Assembly (NCBI GenBank): GCA_025350085.1
Contig: JANXYI010000007.1
Coordinates: forward strand, 1-11,120
Length of the DNA stretch: 11,120 nt
Source of the DNA: Deltaproteobacteria bacterium
GTDB taxonomy: Bacteria; Desulfobacterota; Desulfovibrionia; Desulfovibrionales; Desulfovibrionaceae
Direction: 5' to 3'
Shown here one piece after another: positions 1 to 9,223 of this stretch. A program made the translations under genes and the position numbers. The notes under the pieces are model-generated. The model searched no databases. It was given only the letters and a program-made list of their open reading frames with translations, and was not told the origin of the DNA. Numbering within the stretch: position 1 is the stretch's first letter; each line of letters opens with the position of its first letter.

Positions 1-489
1 CGCGACTCCACGGCCTTCCTTACCGCCTGCGAGACCGCCCGGGACCAGAGCCTCGGCGCCGAGGCCCAGGCCGCGGCTGCCGCGGCAGCGGCCCAGACCC
101 AGGCCGGGCTTGCCGAGAATGCCGCGGACCAGGCCCAGGCCAGCGTGGGTGGGGTCCGCGTGAGCGCTTCCGACACCACCCCGGGCAGCCTTGCGGCCAA
201 GCTCACTGCAGGCGACGGACTGGCCGAGACCCTGCTTTCCCCGGGCGCGGACGAGGTCCTGCGCCTGTCCGTGGCCCTGGCCCAGGACTCCGGCCTGGAG
301 CTGGCCGCAGGCCTGCTGCGGACCCAGGTGGCCCAGGGCGGCGGGCTCTCCCGCACGGCCTTGGGCCTGGCCGCGGACACCGGCGCGGGCTCGTCCCAGC
401 TCCCGACCAACGCGATTGTCAGTCAGACCCAGCGGCCCGCCATGGTGGCCGGCCGCATCCTCAACCACGCACTCCTGGGAGGCATGTAG
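1..489 (+). CDS. Phage tail/fibre-type protein, C-terminal part (partial)
   Basis: The frame is open from base 1, so only the C-terminal ~162 residues are present; the start lies outside the window. The visible part begins with an Ala/Gln-rich stretch, likely helical, followed by a segment around VRVSASDTTPGSLAAKLTAGDG. Similar segments (V-K-V-S-A-x-D-T-T, then K-L-x-x-G-D-G) recur in phage tail fibre and tail-associated proteins. The C-terminus is Gly/Ala/Thr-rich and ends RILNHALLGGM. The next gene starts 3 bases after the stop, so the two are probably co-transcribed. The tail/fibre role is inferred from that segment and from the downstream lysis genes. No catalytic motif is visible. Confidence 0.6.
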   Translation, partial: RDSTAFLTACETARDQSLGAEAQAAAAAAAAQTQAGLAENAADQAQASVGGVRVSASDTTPGSLAAKLTAGDGLAETLLSPGADEVLRLSVALAQDSGLELAAGLLRTQVAQGGGLSRTALGLAADTGAGSSQLPTNAIVSQTQRPAMVAGRILNHALLGGM

Positions 490-492
490 ATC

Positions 493-909
493 ATGGCAGC
501 GAACAAGGAACCCATCTTCATCGGCAGCATCAGCGGTAAGATCACCGAACTGGCCGATACCACCGAGACCGACATCTTTGTGGGCGACTCCGTGGAGTCC
601 ACCCGCGTGGACGTGCTGGCAATCGCCACCGACGACACGGCCGACAAGGACCTGATCCTCCTGTTCCACGACGGCACGGCCAGCAAGAAGGCGGCGCTGG
701 TCAAGATCCCGCTTTCCAGCGGCAACACCAATGCCCTGGCCCCGGTGAACCTGCTGGCCCACGCCCAGCTGGCCGCGCACGTCTGCGCCGACGCCGCGGG
801 CAACAGGTTCATCAACCTGCCCCCGGGCTGGAAGATCCGCGCGCAGGAGGCCGCGGCGCCCACCAGCGGCAAGAAAATGTGGGTCTTTGCCCGCGGCGGA
901 AAATACTAG
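493..909 (+). CDS. Small phage structural-type protein, function unknown
   Basis: This is a 138-residue protein with a GGGAGG ribosome binding site about 12 bases before the ATG and 3 bases after the previous stop. It has no signal peptide or membrane segment. The sequence has alternating hydrophobic and polar residues, suggesting beta structure (TDIFVGDSVESTRVDVLAIA, then LILLFHDG). It ends with MWVFARGGKY. I do not recognise the family. Size, position between two tail-type genes and compact layout suggest a tail-associated or decoration protein, which is inference. The next reading frame begins 2 bases after its stop. Confidence 0.55.
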   Translation: MAANKEPIFIGSISGKITELADTTETDIFVGDSVESTRVDVLAIATDDTADKDLILLFHDGTASKKAALVKIPLSSGNTNALAPVNLLAHAQLAAHVCADAAGNRFINLPPGWKIRAQEAAAPTSGKKMWVFARGGKY

Positions 910-911
910 CC

Positions 912-1952
912 ATGGCCCGGCTCTGTTCGCATGAGGGCGGCGGGGCCTGGCCTGGGGGAGTAGGGGGGATTCCTCCCTCCCCCTTTGGCAAGGCTGGCGC
1001 CATGTTTGGGGATGGGTCTTACTCCGGCAACATCATCCAGGGGGGTAGCGCGCTTCAACCTGACGCTAATGGCATCATCACCATCACCGGGGCAGCAACC
1101 ATTACCCCGGACGCCAACGGGACTGCTTTCGCTATGTGTATGACGCTGGTGTTGGATGGTGCTGGCGCTTCCCTGGCTCCCTCCGTTGCGTGTAAGGGGC
1201 TCCTCGTCCTGGCCTCGGTGAAGATCGAGTTCAAGAACGGGGCTGGTGCATCCATGACGGCAATGGGCGTCGCAGGCCAAGTCCTGGCTGACCCCTCGGT
1301 GTACGACCTCATTCCCACGGCTTTTCAGAAGAAGTTCAACGCACAGAAGCTCAAGTCTTACACCCTCAAGCGGGATGGGGCTGCGGGTACAGCGGTTCCA
1401 TCGGCGCTCAATGTGCCGGGGCTCACAGGCAACGCAGGTGCTTCCTGGCAGTCGGGTTCCGGCGGCTCTGGTGCCGTTGCGAACTCCGGTACTGCTGGCG
1501 CTGGCGCTTTAGGCACATGCTTCTCTGGCGGTTCTGGCGGTGGTGCCAACGTCAACTCCTATGCTGGCTGCACCCCTGGTGTGGACTATGGCGGTGCGGG
1601 TGGCAACTCGACCTATTCCAACTGCCACGGCGGCACAGGCAACCCCGGCGGCTCGGCCCCTGGCGGTGCGGGCAACAACGGCACGGGTGGACTCCTCCTG
1701 CTGCTGGCCCCTGTTGTTCTGATCGGGGCTGGTAGCATCCTCCAGGCAGACGGTGTTTCCTCTGCTGACTCCGCGCACACCGTATCCGGGGCGTCCGGCG
1801 GTGGCATCGTGGGTATCGTCTACAAGGACACCTACACCAACTCCGGCACCGTGCGGGCCAATGGCGGTGCATCGGGCACCTCCGGGTCCGGTGCCAACTT
1901 CAACGGTGGCCCTGGTGGCGCTGGCTCCGTCAACATCGGCCAAGCAGCATAG
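912..1952 (+). CDS. Glycine-rich phage tail tip / adhesin-like protein
   Basis: A 346-residue protein. The N-terminal part contains an MFGDGS segment (residues 31-36) followed by beta-rich sequence, resembling the start of known glycine-rich phage tail proteins. Residues ~155-260 are very rich in Gly, Ser and Asn (runs such as GGSGGGANVN and GGAGGN). Then comes a hydrophobic strand, LLLLLAPVVLIGAG (261-274), and further Gly-rich sequence to the end (GGPGGAG near 332-338). A Gly-rich region followed by L-L-L-x-A-P and G-x-G-x-I-x-A-x-G is seen in tail-tip adhesins and other secreted glycine-rich proteins. The start at 912 follows the previous stop by 2 bases (possible coupling) but lacks a good ribosome binding site; the ATG at 1002, which begins exactly at MFGDGS, is an alternative. 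Codons ending in T are much commoner than in neighbouring genes, suggesting a separate origin. The receptor-binding role is inferred. Confidence 0.62.
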   Translation: MARLCSHEGGGAWPGGVGGIPPSPFGKAGAMFGDGSYSGNIIQGGSALQPDANGIITITGAATITPDANGTAFAMCMTLVLDGAGASLAPSVACKGLLVLASVKIEFKNGAGASMTAMGVAGQVLADPSVYDLIPTAFQKKFNAQKLKSYTLKRDGAAGTAVPSALNVPGLTGNAGASWQSGSGGSGAVANSGTAGAGALGTCFSGGSGGGANVNSYAGCTPGVDYGGAGGNSTYSNCHGGTGNPGGSAPGGAGNNGTGGLLLLLAPVVLIGAGSILQADGVSSADSAHTVSGASGGGIVGIVYKDTYTNSGTVRANGGASGTSGSGANFNGGPGGAGSVNIGQAA

Positions 1953-1961
1953 GAGGCTGAC

Positions 1962-2291
1962 ATGATTCTTTTACATCATCCCGAAGTGGAACTCTCCCGA
2001 AACCTCCTGGCTGCCCTGCCGGAAGGCGTGGCTGTCGTGAACTGGATGGCCCCGGAGCATGACGGCTACCTGGGCGACCCGCAGCCCTCGGCCTTTCCCA
2101 CGGTCATCGTGGAGGTCCCGGCCTATGCCGACGACCGCCCGCTCTTTGGCGAAGGGGGCGAGTTCCTGGGCATGGCCGCGGTTTTGGTGCCCGCGCACCA
2201 GGAGCCCCTGCGCCTGCCAGCCTCCTGGGACGCCGTGGCCTCGTTTGTGGCCTCGGTCGAGAACCGGGCGAGCTTGCGGCCCGCGCCCTAG
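1962..2291 (+). CDS. Hypothetical phage protein downstream of tail tip
   Basis: A 109-residue protein with an AGGAGG ribosome binding site that overlaps the previous stop codon. It has no signal peptide or membrane segment. A central SAFPTVIVEVPAY segment looks like beta strand, and the C-terminal WDAVASFVASVENRA looks helical. Small proteins placed directly after tail fibres are often fibre-assembly or chaperone proteins, and that is a reasonable but unproven reading here. The family is not recognised. Confidence 0.55.
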   Translation: MILLHHPEVELSRNLLAALPEGVAVVNWMAPEHDGYLGDPQPSAFPTVIVEVPAYADDRPLFGEGGEFLGMAAVLVPAHQEPLRLPASWDAVASFVASVENRASLRPAP

Positions 2292-2300
2292 GAGACGGCC

Positions 2301-2684
2301 ATGCATCAGCCCTGTGCCTTCCACGACCAGTTCATGGAGCAGATCCGCGACGCGCTGCTCGGCCTGAAGGACCAGATGCGCCAGGGCATCGAGGCCGTGG
2401 CCGCCCAGTCGCGCGCCAATGGCGAGACCCTTGTGCGCATCGCCGAGTCCCAGGTGGCCCGGCGCGAACTCTGCGCCCGGCAGGAGGAGCGCGTTTCCAC
2501 CCTGGAGCGTGGCGCGGACCAGCACCGCGAGGCCCACACCCGCGAGCGCGAGGAGCATCTGGCCGAGCGCGCGGACCTGTGGAGCGCGGTGAACACCCTG
2601 CGCTTCCATGTCTATGTGGGCCTGGGCGTGGGGCTGGTGCTGCAAATCGTCGGCCCCTTCGTGCTCCGGGCCGTGCTAAAATAG
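2301..2684 (+). CDS. Coiled-coil protein with C-terminal membrane anchor (lysis-cassette, holin/XhlA-like or spanin-like)
   Basis: A 127-residue protein. Residues ~10-98 are rich in Glu, Arg, Gln and Leu and should form a long helix or coiled coil. One hydrophobic segment follows at ~103-124 (VYVGLGVGLVLQIVGPFVL), and the tail is short and basic. This layout, a helical soluble domain then one C-terminal TM, resembles XhlA-type haemolysin/holin accessory proteins found beside phage holins and lysozymes. An inner-membrane spanin is less likely because the anchor is C-terminal. The ribosome binding site AGGAGA overlaps the preceding stop. The gene is followed at once by the holin and lysozyme, which supports a lysis role. 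If the holin frame is truly broken, this protein could matter more for lysis. Confidence 0.55.
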   Translation: MHQPCAFHDQFMEQIRDALLGLKDQMRQGIEAVAAQSRANGETLVRIAESQVARRELCARQEERVSTLERGADQHREAHTREREEHLAERADLWSAVNTLRFHVYVGLGVGLVLQIVGPFVLRAVLK

Positions 2685-2706
2685 CCCTGCCCAAAAGGAG
2701 GAACCC

Positions 2707-3138
2707 ATGCTGCTTGACTTCATCCCGCTCATTGGCGCCGCGGCGCAGAAGCTCCTTGACCTGATCCCGGACCCGAACGCCCGGGCCCGGGCCGCCGAGG
2801 ACTACCAGAGGGAGATCCTGGGCATCGCGGCCAAGGCCTAGGCTGACCAGCGCGAGATCAACAGGGCCGAGGCCGCAAGCCCGTCGCTCTTCGTGGCTGG
2901 CTGGCGGCCGGCCATCGGCTGGGTCTGCGCGCTGGCCCTGGCCTTCCAGTACCTGGCCCGGCCGCTCTGGGTCTGGGCCTCGGGCGTCTGGTGGCCCGCA
3001 GTCGCGCCGCCACCGGCGCTGGACGACATGCTCTGGCAGCTCATGTTCGGCATGCTCGGCATGGGCTCCCTGCGGACCATTGAGAAGATAGGGGGCGAAA
3101 AAATGGGGGCTGAAAAAAACAAGGGGGCGGGCCGATGA
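2707..3138 (+). pseudogene. Three-TM holin (GTA_holin_3TM-like) interrupted by an amber codon
   Basis: Read from the ATG at 2707 (AGGAGG site 7 bases upstream), the frame encodes 44 residues, meets TAG at 2839-2841 (codon 45), and stays open to TGA at 3136-3138; the read-through product would be 143 residues. The region after the stop has EINRAEAASPSLFVAGWRPAIGW, the hallmark of the three-TM holin family of phages and gene transfer agents, followed by two hydrophobic stretches and LGMGSLRTIEK at the end. In the family the corresponding position is commonly Gln or another polar residue, so a CAG-to-TAG transition is the simplest cause. Such holins form inner-membrane holes that release the endolysin. 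A GTG at 2893 could restart a shorter product containing the membrane part, but it has only a weak ribosome binding site. A sequencing error or suppressor tRNA are alternatives. The lysozyme overlaps the end by 4 bases. Confidence 0.75.
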
Positions 3139-3545
3139 ACACGCACCGCCTGGCGCAGCAGCTCATCCTTGACGAGGGCCTGCGCCTCAAACCCTACCGC
3201 TGCACCGCGGGCCGACTGACCATCGGCGTGGGCCGCAACCTGGACGACCGGGGCCTGACCGAGGCCGAGGCCCTTGTCCTTTTGGACAACGACATCAAGG
3301 CCTTCTGGGGCCAGTTGGTCACGGCCCTGCCGTGGGTCGTGCAGGCGCCGGAAGCGGTGCAGGAGGTTCTCGTGAACATGTGCTTCAACCTGGGCCTGGC
3401 CGGGCTGTTGCAGTTCCAGCAGGCCCTGGCGTATCTCCAGGCCGGGCTCTGCATGGATGCGGCCGCAGAGATGCTGCGCTCCAGATGGGCGGGGCAGGTG
3501 GGCGCCCGGGCCGAAAGGCTGGCGGCGAGGCTGAGGGAGCTCTAA
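3135..3545 (+). CDS. Phage endolysin, T4-type lysozyme (GH24 muramidase)
   Basis: A 136-residue enzyme that cleaves the MurNAc-GlcNAc bond of peptidoglycan. The active-site region DEGLRLKPYRCTAGRLTIGVG (residues 13-33) aligns with T4 lysozyme: catalytic Glu11 corresponds to Glu14, Thr26 to Thr29, and T4 Asp20 is replaced by Cys23. The C-terminal part has FNLGLAGLLQF and SRWAGQVGARAERL, matching the T4 segments containing FNMGETG and SRWYNQTPNRAKR. There is no signal or signal-anchor sequence, so access to the wall should depend on a holin. It starts inside the holin reading frame (ATGA overlap), which is typical of translational coupling. Length is close to that of other short GH24 endolysins. 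It is the last gene of the + strand phage block. Confidence 0.92.
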   Translation: MNTHRLAQQLILDEGLRLKPYRCTAGRLTIGVGRNLDDRGLTEAEALVLLDNDIKAFWGQLVTALPWVVQAPEAVQEVLVNMCFNLGLAGLLQFQQALAYLQAGLCMDAAAEMLRSRWAGQVGARAERLAARLREL

Positions 3546-3630: not shown

Positions 3631-4503
3631 CTAGGAGGCGCGCAGGGCCGGGGTCTGCTCGCCGGGGTACAGGGTCTCGAAGCCCTGCTGCACCTGGCGC
3701 ACGAAGTCCGGATCGCGGCGCGAGGGGTCGAAGTAGCGCGGGTCGCGCATCATCTCGCGCAGGCGCTGCGGGGTCAGGCTGGCCGCGGCCCCGGCGCCGC
3801 GCCCGCGCAGGGCGGACTCGTTCACCAGCGGGGCCAGGCGCGCGAAGGCCTGGACCACGCAGGCGTTGTCCGCAGCGCCGGTGTCTTCCAGGGCCTGCAG
3901 CAGGGCCTGGCCGCCCAGGGACCGCACGGCCGCCCGCGCGGCCTCCAGCACCCCCTGGGCCTCGTCGCCGTGGGCCTGGCGCAGGCCGGACAGCTCGCGT
4001 TCGCGGGACTTGCGGCGCTCGGCGCGGACCTTTTCGGTATAGCTGCGCAGGCCTTCAACATTCAGCGGCAGGAACCAGGCGTACAGGCCGCCAGCCTGGG
4101 TCTCGGACAGGCCCAGCTCGTGGGCCTTGGCCAGGAACTGGGCGCGCAGGGTCTCGTCCACGCGGAAGTCCTCGGGCAGCACGATCTCGGGCAGGCAATA
4201 GTCCTCAGGCGAGGCCGGGCGGCCGTCCTGGGGCAAGGCCTGGCCTTGGGACAGCAGGGAGCCCTCGGGCTCGGTCTTGCGGCCCAGCAGGCGCTGGGCA
4301 TGCACCAGGGCCTTCAGGGCCTCGCCGGACGAGGCATACTTGGCCAGGGCCGGGTGCTGGCGCAGGGGGATCTGGGTCTCGTTGCCGGACTCGTCGCGGC
4401 CGGGCGCAGTGATCTCCGCAGGCAGCTCCGAGCGCCAGTCAACGCCCGGGGCCTGGCTTTGGGCGGGGCTGCGTTTCTGGGCTGGGGTGGGGGCATCGGT
4501 CAT
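3631..4503 (-). CDS. Phage scaffold / capsid-assembly-like protein
   Basis: A 290-residue soluble protein read from the ATG at 4503, chosen because AAGGAGA lies 6 bases upstream; the frame continues to 4614 but that extension would cross the promoter. The N-terminal ~45 residues are polar and Pro-rich. Then come HPALAKYASSGEALKALVHAQRLLGRK (50-76), PEDYCLPEIVLPEDF (99-113), a helical region with FLAKAHELGLSETQA (123-137) and a charged helix ~157-195. The C-terminus has RDPRYFDPSRRDPDFVRQV (253-271) and ends near LYPGE. This order is typical of podovirus scaffold/capsid-assembly proteins, which guide head assembly and then leave the procapsid. It is oriented opposite to the tail/lysis genes, and no capsid gene follows. 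It has its own promoter module. The assignment is from pattern recognition; capsid-assembly role is likely but not proven. Confidence 0.65.
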   Translation of the reverse strand: MTDAPTPAQKRSPAQSQAPGVDWRSELPAEITAPGRDESGNETQIPLRQHPALAKYASSGEALKALVHAQRLLGRKTEPEGSLLSQGQALPQDGRPASPEDYCLPEIVLPEDFRVDETLRAQFLAKAHELGLSETQAGGLYAWFLPLNVEGLRSYTEKVRAERRKSRERELSGLRQAHGDEAQGVLEAARAAVRSLGGQALLQALEDTGAADNACVVQAFARLAPLVNESALRGRGAGAAASLTPQRLREMMRDPRYFDPSRRDPDFVRQVQQGFETLYPGEQTPALRAS

Positions 4504-4584
4504 GATGGTCTCCTTGGTTGCAGGTGGGCTAGGGCGGTTTCTGGCCCGGACGCGGCCCTGTGCCGGGCCGGGCGCTCGGCCCTT

Positions 4585-4614
4585 AGTATACCCCCATGTT
4601 TTGCCAAAGGACAA
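4585..4614 (-). promoter_or_regulatory. Promoter of the scaffold-like gene (TTGTCC-N18-TATACT)
   Basis: On the - strand, TATACT (4590-4585) lies 18 bases after TTGTCC (4614-4609), giving a sigma-70-type promoter about 85 bases before the start codon. The -35 hexamer is part of the promoter-proximal copy of the repeated element. The same spacing and near-identical hexamers occur before the Bbp19-like gene. Confidence 0.6.
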
Positions 4615-4662
4615 AAATACCCCATCTTTGGCCGGTAAAAGGACAAAAATACCCTCTTGACA
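4609..4662 (-). repeat. Promoter-linked repeat module, copy A
   Basis: Contains GGACAAAAATACCC at 4609-4622 and again at 4641-4654 (given on the + strand), exactly 32 bp start to start, about three helical turns, followed by TTGACA at 4657-4662. By eye, 46 of 54 positions match copy B at 5958-6011 with no gaps. The proximal repeat includes the -35 hexamer of the scaffold-gene promoter. The arrangement suits a regulator binding two sites on one face of the helix; the protein is unknown. Confidence 0.75.
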
Positions 4663-4668
4663 GGGTTT

Positions 4669-5031
4669 CTAGTCCAGCCGCAGTTCCGCGGCCTGGAGCA
4701 CCTGCTGGCCCGTGAAGCCGAAGAGACGCGTGAACTTGGGCCAGCGCGGGTCGGCCTGCCCGCCGGGCTCCACGCGCAGGCCCACGATGCGCGTCTTGCC
4801 CAGCCTGCGCGCCATGTCCTTGAGCTCCTCCACATCGGCGCGCAGGGCGCGCACCGTGGCCGGGCCGAAGCGCAGCACCTCCAGGTGCAACTCCAGCGCG
4901 TCCTCGTGCTCGGCCAAGGCCGCCGCAGCGTACTCCCCGTCCTTGCCGGACAGGGAGTAGAAACGGAAACGCCAGCTCTCGTGCAGGGTTGCAAGGGCGG
5001 GGTGCGGCTGTGCGAGGGCAATGATGGCCAT
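4669..5031 (-). CDS. Hypothetical phage-type protein
   Basis: A 120-residue protein. The ATG at 5031 is preferred because AGGAGA lies 6 bases before it; the ATG at 5037 touches that site, and the frame open to 5274 has no support. Sequence features are a likely helix ALAEHEDALELHLEVLRFG, then VEELKDMARRLGKTRIVGLRVE, and a C-terminal WPKFTRLFGFTGQQVLQAAEL. The strand-helix pattern and late WPKFTRLFGF motif faintly resemble small GNAT-like phage proteins, but no acetyl-CoA loop can be identified. There is no membrane segment. It lies upstream of the scaffold-like gene on the same strand and stops just before promoter module A, so the two need not share a transcript. Function unknown. Confidence 0.6.
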   Translation of the reverse strand: MAIIALAQPHPALATLHESWRFRFYSLSGKDGEYAAAALAEHEDALELHLEVLRFGPATVRALRADVEELKDMARRLGKTRIVGLRVEPGGQADPRWPKFTRLFGFTGQQVLQAAELRLD

Positions 5032-5125
5032 GATCATTCTCCTGTTCCGGACGGGCTGGCTGGCCCGCCGCTTGAAGCAAAGGTCCGGGCCGTTCCCTGA
5101 CCTGCAAAAAAGGCGGATTTTTCTG

Positions 5126-5152
5126 TTGCCAATCAGGTGCAACGGGTATAAT
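5126..5152 (+). promoter_or_regulatory. Promoter of the lipoprotein gene
   Basis: TATAAT at 5147-5152 is a perfect -10 box; TTGCCA at 5126-5131 is a fair -35 at 15-base spacing, shorter than ideal. An A/T-rich tract (5106-5124) lies just upstream and could act as an UP element. Transcription would begin near 5159, about 197 bases before the lipoprotein start codon. Confidence 0.55.
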
Positions 5153-5158
5153 GACTGG

Positions 5159-5355
5159 CGCGTGAGGGTACGGACCCCCGCATGGGCACGGAGCAGCCGC
5201 GCACATGCGTCAGGGCCGAGCCTCCTCTCCGGCTCCCCCAGGCCGACTGCCAAAAGGCAAACGACCGAGGGCATGGGTCCCGGGTGGGACTTTCGCCGGA
5301 GGTGCAGGAATTTCGTGTCCGTGTTTCATCACCACCAATAGAGAGGAAGGTTCCC
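5159..5355 (+). promoter_or_regulatory. Long leader of the lipoprotein mRNA, possibly structured
   Basis: No convincing gene lies between the phage-type gene at 5031 and the lipoprotein start. The stretch contains possible local hairpins, including GCCGAG/CTCCGGC (5215-5234), TGCC-AAAA-GGCA (5248-5259) and GGACCC (5171-5176) with GGGTCC (5275-5280). It ends with GAGAGGAAGG, the ribosome binding site, 5 bases before the ATG. I could not match it to a known riboswitch, 6S RNA, SRP RNA, tmRNA or tRNA. It may be a regulated leader or include a processed small RNA. Confidence 0.3.
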
Positions 5356-5595
5356 ATGAAAAAGCTGTTCGCCGTGATGATCGTTGCTGCCCTGGCCCTT
5401 GGCGTTTCCGCCTGCGGTGAGAAGAAGGCCGAAGAGAAGAAGGCTGAGCCCGCTGCTGCCGCCCCGGCTCCCGCCGCCCCCGCCGCCCCCGCCGAGGCCA
5501 AGCCCGCTGACGCCGCCAAGCCCGCTGACGCTGCCAAGCCCGCTGACGCCGCCAAGCCCGCTGACGCCGCCAAGCCCGCTGACGTCAAGAAGTAA
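5356..5595 (+). CDS. Small Ala/Pro/Lys-rich lipoprotein with hexapeptide repeats
   Basis: A 79-residue protein. Residues 1-20 form a lipoprotein signal, a basic start (MKK), hydrophobic core and lipobox VSAC with Cys20 as the acylation site, so the product should be exported and anchored by lipid. The mature part starts CGEKKAEEKKAEP, continues with an Ala/Pro-rich spacer, and ends with five AKPADA-type hexapeptides (18-bp DNA units at 5497-5586) and KK. It has no globular domain; it is probably extended, perhaps a spacer or wall-associated protein. The ATG at 5356 is chosen for the signal peptide and ribosome binding site GGAAGG; the frame is open further upstream, but that would remove the signal. 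It has its own promoter and terminator and sits opposite to the flanking phage-type genes, consistent with a moron or an old host gene. The exact role is unknown. Confidence 0.85.
   Translation: MKKLFAVMIVAALALGVSACGEKKAEEKKAEPAAAAPAPAAPAAPAEAKPADAAKPADAAKPADAAKPADAAKPADVKK
5497..5586 (+). repeat. Five tandem 18-bp repeats in the lipoprotein gene
   Basis: Units of GCCAAGCCCGCTGACGCC are repeated five times in frame, with single-base changes (GCT ending unit 2, GTC ending unit 5). Each encodes AKPADA (the last AKPADV). Near-identity at DNA level suggests recent expansion by slippage. Confidence 0.9.
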
Positions 5596-5616
5596 GACTC
5601 GGACCCTAGTCCATCC

Positions 5617-5647
5617 AGAGGGGGGCCATTGGCCCCCCTCTTTTTTT
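5617..5647 (+). terminator. Intrinsic terminator of the lipoprotein gene
   Basis: An 11-bp stem, AGAGGGGGGCC (5617-5627) with GGCCCCCCTCT (5631-5641), closes a 3-base ATT loop and runs into seven T (5641-5647). It lies 22 bases after the stop codon. The T-run is on the + strand side only. Confidence 0.93.
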
Positions 5648-5679
5648 GTCCTGCCCCCGGCGCTGCGGCCCTTCGGGTC

Positions 5680-5910
5680 TCAGTCCGCGTCCGGCCCGGC
5701 CGGGCGTCTGGGTTCGGGCCCTTCGATCATCCGGCTGACATGAAGGGCCAGGCTCCGGCGGCCCTCGTTGAAGGCCGCACGCTGCGGGTCCGGGCTGAAG
5801 CTCGTCTCGCCGAGGAAGCCCTGGCGGGCTATGTCCGCCAGGACCAGCCGCCCGGCCTCGCCTTCGAAGGCCCGGGCATAGGCCAGATGCAGATCCAGTT
5901 GTTCGCGCAT
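5680..5910 (-). CDS. Bbp19-like small phage protein
   Basis: A 76-residue protein read from the ATG at 5910 with AAAGGAGGG upstream; the frame continues to 6045 but that extension crosses the promoter. The sequence has YARAFEGEAGRLVLADIAR (11-29), then TSFSPDPQRAAFNEGRRSL (36-54) and a short helix LHVSRM. This order of a G-x-x-V/L-L-A-D helix, a T-S-F-x-P-D-P segment and an A-F-x-E-G-R-R helix matches the Bbp19-like domain named after a Bordetella podophage gene and common among podovirus structural regions. Its function is not established. It has promoter module B 24-101 bases upstream of the ATG and converges on the lipoprotein terminator. The Pro/Arg-rich C-terminus looks disordered. Confidence 0.75.
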   Translation of the reverse strand: MREQLDLHLAYARAFEGEAGRLVLADIARQGFLGETSFSPDPQRAAFNEGRRSLALHVSRMIEGPEPRRPAGPDAD

Positions 5911-5933
5911 GGGGGGTACCCTCCTTTGCCCGC

Positions 5934-5963
5934 AGCATACACCCGGAAAACCGGGCCGGACAA
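5934..5963 (-). promoter_or_regulatory. Promoter of the Bbp19-like gene (TTGTCC-N18-TATGCT)
   Basis: On the - strand, TATGCT (5939-5934) is 18 bases after TTGTCC (5963-5958). The layout copies the scaffold-gene promoter exactly, including the -35 hexamer lying inside the proximal repeat. The start codon is 24 bases beyond the -10 box. Confidence 0.6.
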
Positions 5964-6011
5964 AAAACACCCATTTTGGGCCGCTAAAAGGACAAAAATT
6001 CCCTGTTGACA
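5958..6011 (-). repeat. Promoter-linked repeat module, copy B
   Basis: Contains GGACAAAAAACACCC at 5958-5972 and GGACAAAAATTCCC at 5990-6003, again 32 bp start to start, with TTGACA at 6006-6011, the same offset (16 bases) from the distal repeat as in copy A. The near-identity to copy A includes spacer sequence (ATnTTnGGCCGnTAAAA), so it is a duplicated module and not two separate consensus hits. Confidence 0.75.
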
Positions 6012-6056
6012 GCTTTTCGGGCAGCGGGGCCCGAAACTGAAACACACCGTCGCCCC

Positions 6057-6139: not shown

Positions 6140-9100
6140 ATGGCCGAGAGCGAATCATCCTACTGCGGGCAGGGCGCCGAGGCCTTCGCGCTTTTGCGCC
6201 CCTCGCGCGCCTTTTTCGACCAGAAGGACTATGACCTGCTGCGCATCGTCTGCGACGTGGTGAACCGCGAGGACGCCCCGGCCCACAAGAAGCTTTTAGC
6301 CCCGTACATGCATCCCCACGGCATCAAGGAGATGGCCGCCACGCGCGGCCTGCGCATCGCCTACGCCGTGGTGCACCTGCTCGGATCGCTGGAAACCGGC
6401 AAGGCCGAGGACCGGCTCTCGGCCCTGCGCGGCCTGCACGCCGAGGTGCTGACCACGGCCCAGGGCGGGCTGCGCCGCAACACCGCGCGCGTGCTCGTGC
6501 AGCTCATGAAGGACATGGTCCGCGCGGGTGGCGACCCCCAGACCCAGCTCATGCTGGCCCACGACTTCCGCGAGGCCACCTCGGGCCGGCCCAGGGTCAT
6601 CCGCCGCCACCTGGAGAGCTTCCACCTGCTGGAAATCCCCGAGGACAACAGCCAGATCGCCTTCGACCACCACGTGCACGATGCCAACACCAAGGGCCGC
6701 AAGTCCTCCACGCACCTGGTCATGGACGCCTGGATCAAGGGCATCAAGAGCCTCACGGTCATCTACTACAACCACGTGCCCCGCGAGGTCGCGGCCGAGC
6801 TCCTGGAAGCCGCGCAGATCATGGAGATCAAGGTGCGCATCGGCATCGAGTTCACCCCGCGCTTCCGCGGCCGCTACCTGAAGCTCATCTGGGTGCCGGG
6901 CGGGTTCGCCTCCCCGGCGGAGTTCCTGGACTTTCTCGACCAGCCCGAGACCCGGCGCTTTTTCGAGGAGTCCCGGCAGGTCTCGCTCTTTCACCAGGGC
7001 TATGTCCGGCAGGTCTTTGACGAGTTCAACGCCGTGCACCGGCAGACCCTGGCCCGGGACTTCGGCCTGGAGCTTGCGCCCCTGCCCGAGCCGGAATTCC
7101 GGCGCTTTGTGGGCGCAGGCCAGGCCTCGCTGGAGCACCTGGGCAAGTTCATCCACGACCGCCTGCTGCCGCTGATGCAGAAGCAGGCCGCGTTTCTGCG
7201 CCACGAGTTGAGTACCGCCACCGCGCCCGTGCGTGCGGAGATCCGCCAGCAGCTCAAGCACCTGCGCGATCTGGACACCGACGAGATCATCGAGCGCTTC
7301 CTCAAGCCGGACAAGAACCCCACCCTGGCCGATCCGGGCGTGCCCCCGGACGTCTCCGAGGATGCGCCGGAGGTGCCGGGCATGCTCAAGCTCGCGCCGC
7401 AGGAGCTTGCGGCGCGGCTGCTTGAGATCCACGCCCTGGGGCGCATCACCCTGAGCCTGGGCAACCTGCGCGTGGAGGACGTGCTGGAGATCCTCTACGA
7501 CTGCCAGGGCGCGGTGACGCACCTGGAGATCGTGAACATGAAGGACCGCGCCCTGGGGCGCGAGCTGGACCCCGAGCGCATCAACGCCCTGCAGGAGGCG
7601 CTGAACACCGCCAACGTCATCAAGCTCAAGAAGCTGATCCGCGGCATCATCGCCAGCGTGGGGTCGCGCACCCGGCGCGAGAAGCTCTCCGAGATCCTCT
7701 ACGACATCTCCACCCTGCGTTCCTACTACCTGAAGACGCCGCTGGCCTCCTGCATCGGCACGGACTCCACGGGCCAGTCCAGCCGCCTGTATGGCATGGG
7801 CATGGTCGTGGTGGACACCCTGCCCGCGCGCGCGCGCCGCGCCCTGGCCCGCATGTCCGGCGCGGAGGTGAAGCGCCTGGACGTCACCGTAAGCGCACGC
7901 AGGCGCGTCACCGACCTGGCCGAGGACGAGGGCGTGCCGCGGTCCGGCCTGCTGCCTGCGCTGGCCGCGCTCATCCCGCCGCTCAAGGTCCTCACCCGGG
8001 GCCACGGCGTGGAATGGCTGGTGGAGAACCACCGCCTGACGCCGGGGAAACCGGGCAATGTGTCGCTTTTGGGCGGCATCCAGCGCGAGCACGGCCTGGA
8101 GGCGGGCCTGGAAGAGACCGGGCCACAGCAGGCCAAGGCCCAGAGCCGTCCGCCCCTGCGCTACCTCAACTCGCACCTCAAGAACGGGCTCAAGATCCTG
8201 GCCGGGTTCATCCCCGCGGCCCTGACCTTTGCCCTGACCAAGGACTGGTGGGTGCTGGCCTGGTTCGGCGCCTTCCTCTGGTTCGGCATCACCGGCGTGC
8301 GCAACGTCATCCAGATGGTGCTGGGCTCGGGCGGGCTCAAGCGTTCCTCGCTCCTGCAGTGGAGCGGGCTGGTGAGCTGGGGGCGGCTGGCGGACTCGCT
8401 TCTGTACACGGGCTTCTCCGTGCCCCTGCTGGACTACCTGGTGAAGACGCAGCTTTTGAACAAGACCCTGGGCATCACCCTGGCCACCTCGCCGCTGGCG
8501 CTCTATGCGGTCATCGCCCTGGCCAACGGGCTGTACATCTGCAGCCACAACATCCTGCGCGGGCTGCCCACTGCCGCGGCCGTGGGCAACCTGTTCCGCT
8601 CGGTGGTCTCCATCCCGCTCGCCCTGGTCTTCAGCGCGGCCATCGTGCTGCTGCTTCAGGCCTCGGGCCACCCGGACGCCGCGAGCGCGGTGGAGCCCTG
8701 GGCCGCGGTGATCTCCAAGCTGGCCAGCGACTGCGTGGCCGGACTCATCGAGGGCGTGGCCGACCGCGAGCTGTTCATCCGTCTGCGCGCCTGGGACTAC
8801 CGGGGCAAGCTGAACCAGATCTTCGACACCTTCCAGCAATTGGAGCTGCTCTTCCCCCAGGAAGACGCCCTGGCCCTGCTCGAGTCGCCCAAGCAGTTCA
8901 TGCTGACCATGAGCTACGAGCACAAGGGCCTGGAGAACATCATCATCGTCAACGCGCTGGATCTCTTGTACTTCTGGATGTACCAGCCGCGCGCCCGCGG
9001 GGTCATGGCGGGCTTCCTGCGCGAGATGGGGCCGGAGGAGCGCCGGGTGTTCCTGCTCTCGCAGTACGTGCTCATGCGCGAGCGCGAGATCAGCCAGCTC

Positions 9101-9223
9101 TTCCTGGACGGGTTGGTGGGCCGCAACTTTGCCCGGGCCCTGTCCTTCTACCTGGACATGCACCGCGGGTACCTGGACGACATCCAGGGCCTGGCCGCGC
9201 GCCTGGCCGTGGCCGCGAAGTAG
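6140..9223 (+). CDS. Large membrane protein with degenerate PHP-like domain
   Basis: A 1027-residue protein from the ATG at 6140, which has GGAG 6 bases upstream; the frame is open back to 6065 but those codons look like leader. The N-terminal ~165 residues are helical. Residues ~174-255 resemble a PHP (polymerase and histidinol phosphatase) metal domain: DHHVHDA (176-182) matches motif I (HxH = His178, His180), GIKSLTVIYYNHV (201-213) matches motif II, but with Tyr-Tyr-Asn-His in place of TDHD, and KVRIGIEFT (231-239) matches motif III with Glu237. So some metal ligands are kept and others lost. Residues ~320-670 are mostly charged helices, including a GTDSTGQSSRLYGMGMVVVDTLP segment (540-561). 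About five membrane segments lie in ~685-841, followed by a ~185-residue soluble tail. A signalling, hydrolytic or non-catalytic sensor role are all possible; I do not recognise the full-length family. The rsmG gene follows 59 bases later. Confidence 0.85.
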   Translation: MAESESSYCGQGAEAFALLRPSRAFFDQKDYDLLRIVCDVVNREDAPAHKKLLAPYMHPHGIKEMAATRGLRIAYAVVHLLGSLETGKAEDRLSALRGLHAEVLTTAQGGLRRNTARVLVQLMKDMVRAGGDPQTQLMLAHDFREATSGRPRVIRRHLESFHLLEIPEDNSQIAFDHHVHDANTKGRKSSTHLVMDAWIKGIKSLTVIYYNHVPREVAAELLEAAQIMEIKVRIGIEFTPRFRGRYLKLIWVPGGFASPAEFLDFLDQPETRRFFEESRQVSLFHQGYVRQVFDEFNAVHRQTLARDFGLELAPLPEPEFRRFVGAGQASLEHLGKFIHDRLLPLMQKQAAFLRHELSTATAPVRAEIRQQLKHLRDLDTDEIIERFLKPDKNPTLADPGVPPDVSEDAPEVPGMLKLAPQELAARLLEIHALGRITLSLGNLRVEDVLEILYDCQGAVTHLEIVNMKDRALGRELDPERINALQEALNTANVIKLKKLIRGIIASVGSRTRREKLSEILYDISTLRSYYLKTPLASCIGTDSTGQSSRLYGMGMVVVDTLPARARRALARMSGAEVKRLDVTVSARRRVTDLAEDEGVPRSGLLPALAALIPPLKVLTRGHGVEWLVENHRLTPGKPGNVSLLGGIQREHGLEAGLEETGPQQAKAQSRPPLRYLNSHLKNGLKILAGFIPAALTFALTKDWWVLAWFGAFLWFGITGVRNVIQMVLGSGGLKRSSLLQWSGLVSWGRLADSLLYTGFSVPLLDYLVKTQLLNKTLGITLATSPLALYAVIALANGLYICSHNILRGLPTAAAVGNLFRSVVSIPLALVFSAAIVLLLQASGHPDAASAVEPWAAVISKLASDCVAGLIEGVADRELFIRLRAWDYRGKLNQIFDTFQQLELLFPQEDALALLESPKQFMLTMSYEHKGLENIIIVNALDLLYFWMYQPRARGVMAGFLREMGPEERRVFLLSQYVLMREREISQLFLDGLVGRNFARALSFYLDMHRGYLDDIQGLAARLAVAAK

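Follow-up and report, generated by a model that had tools for sequence, protein, structure and literature searches.

The window analysed here, an 11,120-nt stretch of DNA from a genome of the genus Humidesulfovibrio (73.83% complete, 462 contigs), carries two closely similar promoter-like modules in front of two phage-type genes, which raises the question what such a module is for and which genes it controls. The two 54-bp segments (4609-4662 and 5958-6011) match at 46/54 positions without gaps, as the first-pass annotation had pointed out, and the repeat between both modules extends to 61 nt with 84% identity. They form the top-scoring 54-mer pair of a 3-kb region, whereas the best pair in five dinucleotide shuffles of the same region reached only 31-33 matches. 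The window contains two copies of the pattern GGACAAAAA-N23-GGACAAAAA with 0 mismatches, and none was obtained in 200 shuffles even when 3 mismatches were allowed. Thus, the 200 pattern shuffles and the five 54-mer shuffles rule out a chance origin of the pair.

Both modules lie on the minus strand. Module 1 (profile hit at 4582..4668, 79.6 bits, E 7.4e-23) precedes the scaffold-like gene and consists of TGTCAA (4657-4662), a distal repeat (4641-4654), CGGCC (4630-4634), the -35 element TTGTCC inside the proximal repeat (4609-4614) and the -10 element TATACT (4585-4590). Module 2 (5930..6018, 74.9 bits, E 2e-21), in front of the Bbp19-like gene, has the same parts: TGTCAA (6006-6011), distal repeat (5990-6003), CGGCC (5979-5983), TTGTCC inside the proximal repeat (5958-5963) and TATGCT (5934-5939). 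The -35 and -10 elements and their 18-bp spacer are placed in both modules as originally described. TGTCAA and CGGCC had been missed in that description; across copies they are conserved at least as well as the repeats. CGGCC, midway in the module, is part of an inverted half-copy GGCCAAAA. The earlier view of the module as direct repeats only therefore holds in part: direct repeats are present, but they are accompanied by the upstream TGTCAA, the inverted GGCCAAAA and, in relatives, tandem 10-11 bp half-sites.

The genes behind the two modules had also been named correctly. The scaffold-like gene (3631..4503, minus strand, 290 aa) matches PF05396 (E 2.2e-6) and phrog_3742 (E 5.4e-19), the Bbp19-like gene (5680..5910, minus strand, 76 aa) matches PF25181 (E 4.6e-17), and a module lies upstream in all five other scaffold loci and of each of five Bbp19 orthologues elsewhere. 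A gene between the modules (4669..5055, minus strand) without Pfam or PHROG match has similar genes at the equal place in loci L043 and L077 and is perhaps co-transcribed with Bbp19. Positions 1..3545 (plus strand) hold the end of a tail/lysis operon with the end of a tail fibre gene, small genes, a holin-like gene and a lysozyme gene (3135-3545, PF00959, E 8.2e-13). Judged from the gene order of L043 and L077, this operon begins behind a module in relatives; the corresponding module of the window's genome is found on contig C380 (5133-5220). The tail/lysis operon, scaffold and Bbp19 genes of the window are orthologous to loci in genomes G012 and G003, with identical neighbours. The holin-like gene (2707-2841) has an in-frame TAG at 2839-2841, beyond which the frame of its orthologues in L043 and L077 continues; the TAG may be a genuine stop or a sequencing error in the assembly. 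A gene of 1027 aa with no match in Pfam (6140-9223) adjoins the Bbp19 module, related genes being equally placed in L043 and L077, and a small Ala/Pro/Lys-rich lipoprotein-like gene with a short tandem repeat lies between the modules (5356-5595, plus strand).

Further contigs of the window's genome carry the repeat with equal 32-bp spacing. Copies upstream of phage genes elsewhere, which had been expected if the module marks a regulon, were indeed found: a module profile built from sequence only gave 11 hits in this genome and matched 14/15 Humidesulfovibrio genomes, mostly immediately upstream of a gene start. With the best 14 candidates considered in each, these 14 genomes contain at least 5-14 modules. 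The genus itself was recognised by named capsid matches, some of which bear other names. With the best 21 candidates each, nine Humidesulfovibrio genomes in a class sample of 199 genomes, most listed ones of the same family, contain at least 21, 19, 18, 14, 13, 12, 11, 11 and 10. The paired repeat pattern was frequent in Humidesulfovibrio only (59 genomes searched). Matches of a first wide pattern search outside the genus were no commoner than in the reversed control and are not used as evidence there. In the rest of the family, 35/273 genomes had a weaker profile match at E 0.01, with multiple copies mainly in Pseudodesulfovibrio and g14, and weaker module forms lie upstream of capsid and portal operons in Pseudodesulfovibrio. 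Weak matches outside the family in G036 (E 0.0017) and G056 (E 0.0076) were treated as noise, and the exact module pattern was absent from all viral contigs searched.

Altogether 62 modules were mapped in 40 fetched stretches, four contigs and the window, and all but one, which is cut off by the end of its contig, were aligned (61 copies). The aligned copies had been chosen by two TTTTTGTCC repeats, so that the conservation of these repeats partly reflects the selection; TGTCA and CGGC, which were no selection criterion, are invariant in 61/61 copies. Conservation stops at the promoter edges.

A called start on the same strand follows within 300 bp in 47 of the 62 modules (median 52 bp). Six others meet a contig end, six an opposite-strand gene first and three a farther start; the last two groups comprise three modules with TerS about 520 bp off, three with capsid or scaffold starts called inside the module, one broken-frame toxin, one broken-frame Rhs gene and one case (L078) with no recognised gene. 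For five modules no open frame was kept for clustering. The 57 assigned downstream genes encode modular toxins (18, including row L049, where a tail-tubular gene and the effector that follows were read in the wrong frame, and row L045, a broken gene), Rhs proteins (7), Bbp19 (6), scaffold (6), GNAT/internal virion proteins (5), capsid (5), TerS-linked products (3), TerL (2), tail tubular proteins (2) and three single genes, of which L058 is a GNAT gene read in the wrong frame. Families recognised behind modules include capsid PF19821 (E 1e-74), internal virion PF24072, RHS and Tlde1 in Pfam, and TerL phrog_2, TerS phrog_4044, tail phrog_394 and internal virion phrog_308 in PHROG; the TerL and GNAT genes score below the Pfam cut-offs. 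Lysis genes also stand behind modules, and portal PF12236, present in 14/15 Humidesulfovibrio genomes, has a module upstream in 10/12 fetched portal loci. The proposal of a phage-gene regulon is thus supported by the phage genes behind the modules, but the regulon is wider, as it also includes Rhs and modular toxin genes.

Several loci show additional features. At L046, L061 and L067 about 520 bp separate the module from the TerS gene downstream; in L046 a small opposite-strand gene resembling those of secreted proteins lies between them, to which the TerS leader would be antisense. Capsid leaders of L091-L094 and L096 contain, besides a GGGACACCCGG motif that is also present in other genera, a long inverted repeat (GCTTCGCCGCGCGCC ... 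GGCGCGCGGCGAAGC). Three toxin modules exactly 1387 bp apart in G009 (C34, 20614-23428, L059) reflect a toxin cassette duplicated in tandem. In many cases a contig breaks off no more than about 250 bp from a module (C19, C23 and C34 of G012; C19, C21, C29 and C34 of G009), usually ahead of Rhs or toxin genes, and the repeated genes that follow are the probable cause.

The phage genes behind the modules belong to one short-tailed phage and are dispersed, singly or in small operons, amid host genes. In G012, capsid, TerL, TerS and tail tubular genes are each flanked by host genes and do not form a contiguous prophage cluster, and the genes are spread such that no mobile unit holds them all, as expected of a gene transfer agent (GTA). 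The retention of phage-derived head, portal and packaging genes in Humidesulfovibrio genomes is likewise a GTA trait. TerL is kept in 5/5 Humidesulfovibrio genomes searched, the G010 copy having an in-frame stop. Because Humidesulfovibrio TerL gave no match in 13 complete Pseudodesulfovibrio genomes at E 1e-10, a full packaging set is seen in Humidesulfovibrio only.

Gene order differs between genomes. Portal and tail tubular genes are adjacent in G010, G014, G001, G004 and G008, and apart, each with its own module, in G012, G009 and G013. In 13/13 complete Pseudodesulfovibrio genomes a distance of about 0.5 kb separates portal from scaffold, and the Pseudodesulfovibrio capsid gene lies at least 8 kb from portal and scaffold with the exception of G253 (C1, 769665-774104, L122), where, unlike in all other genomes searched, capsid, portal and scaffold are contiguous. 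This contiguous order is perhaps ancestral, and we read the different gene orders as reflecting a stepwise splitting of one head operon.

Upstream of capsid genes outside the genus the repeats have drifted, and GTCAA and an AAAA-GG-TAnnnT end are retained. The distance from GTCAA to the -10 element before capsids is 70-71 bp in 11/11 Humidesulfovibrio and 5/5 other-genus regions; among the Pseudodesulfovibrio capsids it is 70-71 bp in 4/15 and 79-80 bp in 10/15, with one uncalled. One of these spacings was thus obtained in 30/31 capsid regions, with a script that was free to pick the -10 element within 55-100 bp. Before Pseudodesulfovibrio portals a spacing of 79-81 bp was found in 10/12 regions and in 0 in three control readings, only the allowed spacings being offered to the script in this case. 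The two spacing classes (70-71 and 79-81 bp) differ by one helical turn. Moreover, YCC ends spaced 10-11 bp apart occurred 15 times in 14 regions, which are related to one another, against 4.9 expected (0/1000 mononucleotide shuffles), and also recur at 21-22 bp. The 32-bp repeat spacing hence resembles three helical turns in an array of tandem 10-11 bp units. In sum, the promoter design combines a sigma70-type -10 element, a poor -35 element and TGTCAA about 70 bp upstream (about 80 bp in most Pseudodesulfovibrio), with T-tract/YCC half-sites in between.

The poor -35 element together with the phased half-sites suggests an activator that would sit on one helical face, and we infer a dedicated regulator of the module; no regulator gene could be singled out. 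Such an activator would contact TGTCAA as well as the phased half-sites from the same side of the DNA and recruit RNA polymerase to the weak promoter, so that unlinked virion genes would fire together in one cell state. Their product would be a DNA-packaging particle, a step proposed because Humidesulfovibrio has retained the portal and both subunits of the terminase.

The capsid gene is single-copy in 13/15 Humidesulfovibrio genomes and was not found in the window's own incomplete genome nor in G011. A capsid tree of 40 rows follows the genus labels and requires no more than the minimum of 6 genus changes, although support for the Pseudodesulfovibrio clade is only 74/90. The dN/dS ratio of capsids, estimated by NG86, which is rough at the capsid GC content, has a median of 0.25 and a maximum of 0.46 (66 pairs, 12 sequences). 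Frames are stop-free in 64/66 listed capsid rows, the other two being one split copy and one copy with a stop. Judged from the capsid tree and dN/dS alone, inheritance is vertical under purifying selection, as expected of a GTA. All 84 phage capsid records are below 60% identity, the best (54.6%) being an unannotated 5-kb record; in viral contigs the capsid identity reached 62%. Podoviruses with PF19821-type capsids (Pelagibacter phage EXVC031P, Vibrio phage 1.179.O and others) have a capsid homologous over about 98% of its length, but differ from the module capsid by an identity below 60% throughout.

Besides virion genes, modules precede genes for small Rhs proteins and modular putative toxins, several of which are predicted to be peptidoglycan-directed. 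An N-terminal domain of about 59 positions, here called the W domain (DW[WF]xVxKPxDWxP; invariant D39, W40, V43, W49 and P51), occurs in 36/288 family genomes and 3/44 genera, all three of them capsid-bearing. A capsid match was obtained in 34/36 genomes with the W domain versus 26/252 others (p 1.9e-25, best 21 candidates per genome); the 36 genomes represent three genera and not 36 independent events. W-domain genes lie behind the portal gene in L112, L113 and L121, behind the tail-tubular gene in L049, within about 0.75 kb behind the capsid gene in seven Pseudodesulfovibrio and behind the scaffold gene in four. Modular enzymes under the module likewise begin with this domain. It was not seen as an N-terminal motif in two scanned Tlde1 proteins under the module.

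Pfam recognised none of the effector C-terminal domains except Tlde1 and, in one W-domain enzyme, a weak CHAP match. The C-terminal domain of P0022, another of the W-domain enzymes under the module, was modelled with pLDDT mostly above 80, and the model matches peptidoglycan-peptidase folds, with the VldE C-terminal domain (E 1.9e-4), MepA (E 0.05) and a VanY-like enzyme (E 0.19) in the fold search; a viral structure library gave one unnamed match (E 3.7e-4). The model of a portal-operon effector was poor (mean pLDDT 43). Each of 5/5 portal- or tail-operon effectors examined is followed by a gene for a small protein that has one to three hydrophobic segments and that we read as a putative immunity protein. 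The common promoter design before virion genes and putative toxin genes suggests that cells would turn on toxins and a phage-like particle at the same time. We raise only tentatively, and with more doubt than conviction, that a domesticated podovirus delivers polymorphic toxins, the W domain being a virion-loading signal, the particle injecting toxin with or without DNA, and kin being protected by the small membrane proteins encoded next door.

That the modules define a shared regulon of a domesticated phage we regard as highly probable, and three alternatives to it have little weight. If the modules were copies of a small spreading element or recombination site, their large number and the many contigs that break soon after a module would be explained; their orientation to gene starts, the end of conservation at the promoter edges and the diverged module forms that other genera have at the orthologous places before capsid and portal rule this out, leaving it practically no credence. 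A regulon of toxins of T6SS or another secretion system that incidentally includes phage-like genes would account for the 18 toxin and 7 Rhs genes among the 57 assigned, the Tlde1 domains and the presence of VipB in 4/15 genomes, but capsid, portal, terminase and scaffold genes carry the module as well, which makes it very improbable. The VipB sheath was not found in 11/15 genomes, including G012, G009 and G013 (99-100% complete), and a T6SS regulon was rejected. Equally improbable are decaying prophage remnants with the module as an old late promoter: single genes lie far apart and a few copies are broken, yet nearly all capsid frames are intact under purifying selection, host neighbours are identical in several species, and modules are retained before relocated genes.

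Two questions within the domesticated-phage regulon are less settled. The repeats could be operators of a repressor that silences the phage genes until a signal arrives, since the proximal repeat overlaps the -35 element and a CTGTCAACAG palindrome lies upstream of several capsids outside the genus; with regard to a cI/LexA-type operator made up of short palindromes, this palindrome is present in several relatives and incomplete in most Humidesulfovibrio copies. The poor -35 element, the position of a best-conserved element about 80 bp upstream and the spacing change by one helical turn fit the phasing of an activator with the polymerase better, so that we consider repression unlikely and activation the probable mode of action. 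As for the particle, it might be kept for killing or toxin delivery, with DNA packaging incidental or lost. The module promoter of toxin genes, their place in virion operons and the lack of a TerL match in the 13 Pseudodesulfovibrio genomes favour such a role, but Humidesulfovibrio keeps TerL (one of the five copies with a stop), TerS in three loci and the portal in nearly all genomes; killing without gene transfer hence seems a minority prospect, and we lean slightly towards a particle that acts as a GTA. On the sequence data as a whole, the module is likely the common promoter of a GTA-like regulon of a domesticated short-tailed phage together with co-regulated toxins.

The module thus provides a sequence signature for a GTA-like system in a family whose agent, Dd1, is known mainly from particles. 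The Dd1 particle has a small head and a very short tail. Virion genes split into separate transcripts are united here by one promoter design, intermediate gene orders persist in living genera, and particle genes are connected, through their operons as well as their regulation, with pairs of toxin and immunity-like genes. This link makes the purpose of such particles testable in culturable Pseudodesulfovibrio, for instance in the environmental Pseudodesulfovibrio hydrargyri BerOc1, which has the capsid. No paper on the module system was found among the open-licence papers searched.

Of the known systems, Dd1 of Desulfovibrio desulfuricans is a GTA of the same bacterial family; a review mentions a putative Dd1 small terminase, so that some Dd1 genes have been proposed, and describes the GTA small terminase as being without a DNA-binding domain (PMC11841831). 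FpGTA of Faecalibacterium, described as a probably podovirus-like, GTA-like element in two loci, resembles the module system by this description as a split podovirus-like element outside the Alphaproteobacteria; it differs in having two operons instead of many single-gene loci, and the accessible text of that report describes no common promoter design or toxins (PMC12946183). CcGTA of Caulobacter crescentus is controlled by GafY, GafZ and IHF, with 20 GafY sites, 18 of them common with IHF, and it resembles the module system in its sigma70-type phage-gene promoter, in the position of the activator site, presumed for the module, at some distance before the -35 element, and in the use of this design at many chromosomal sites (PMC11150451). 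Hosts and phage ancestors of the two systems differ, and CcGTA consists of one main cluster with peripheral genes, whereas the head genes described here are, by their layout, separate transcripts (PMC11150451).
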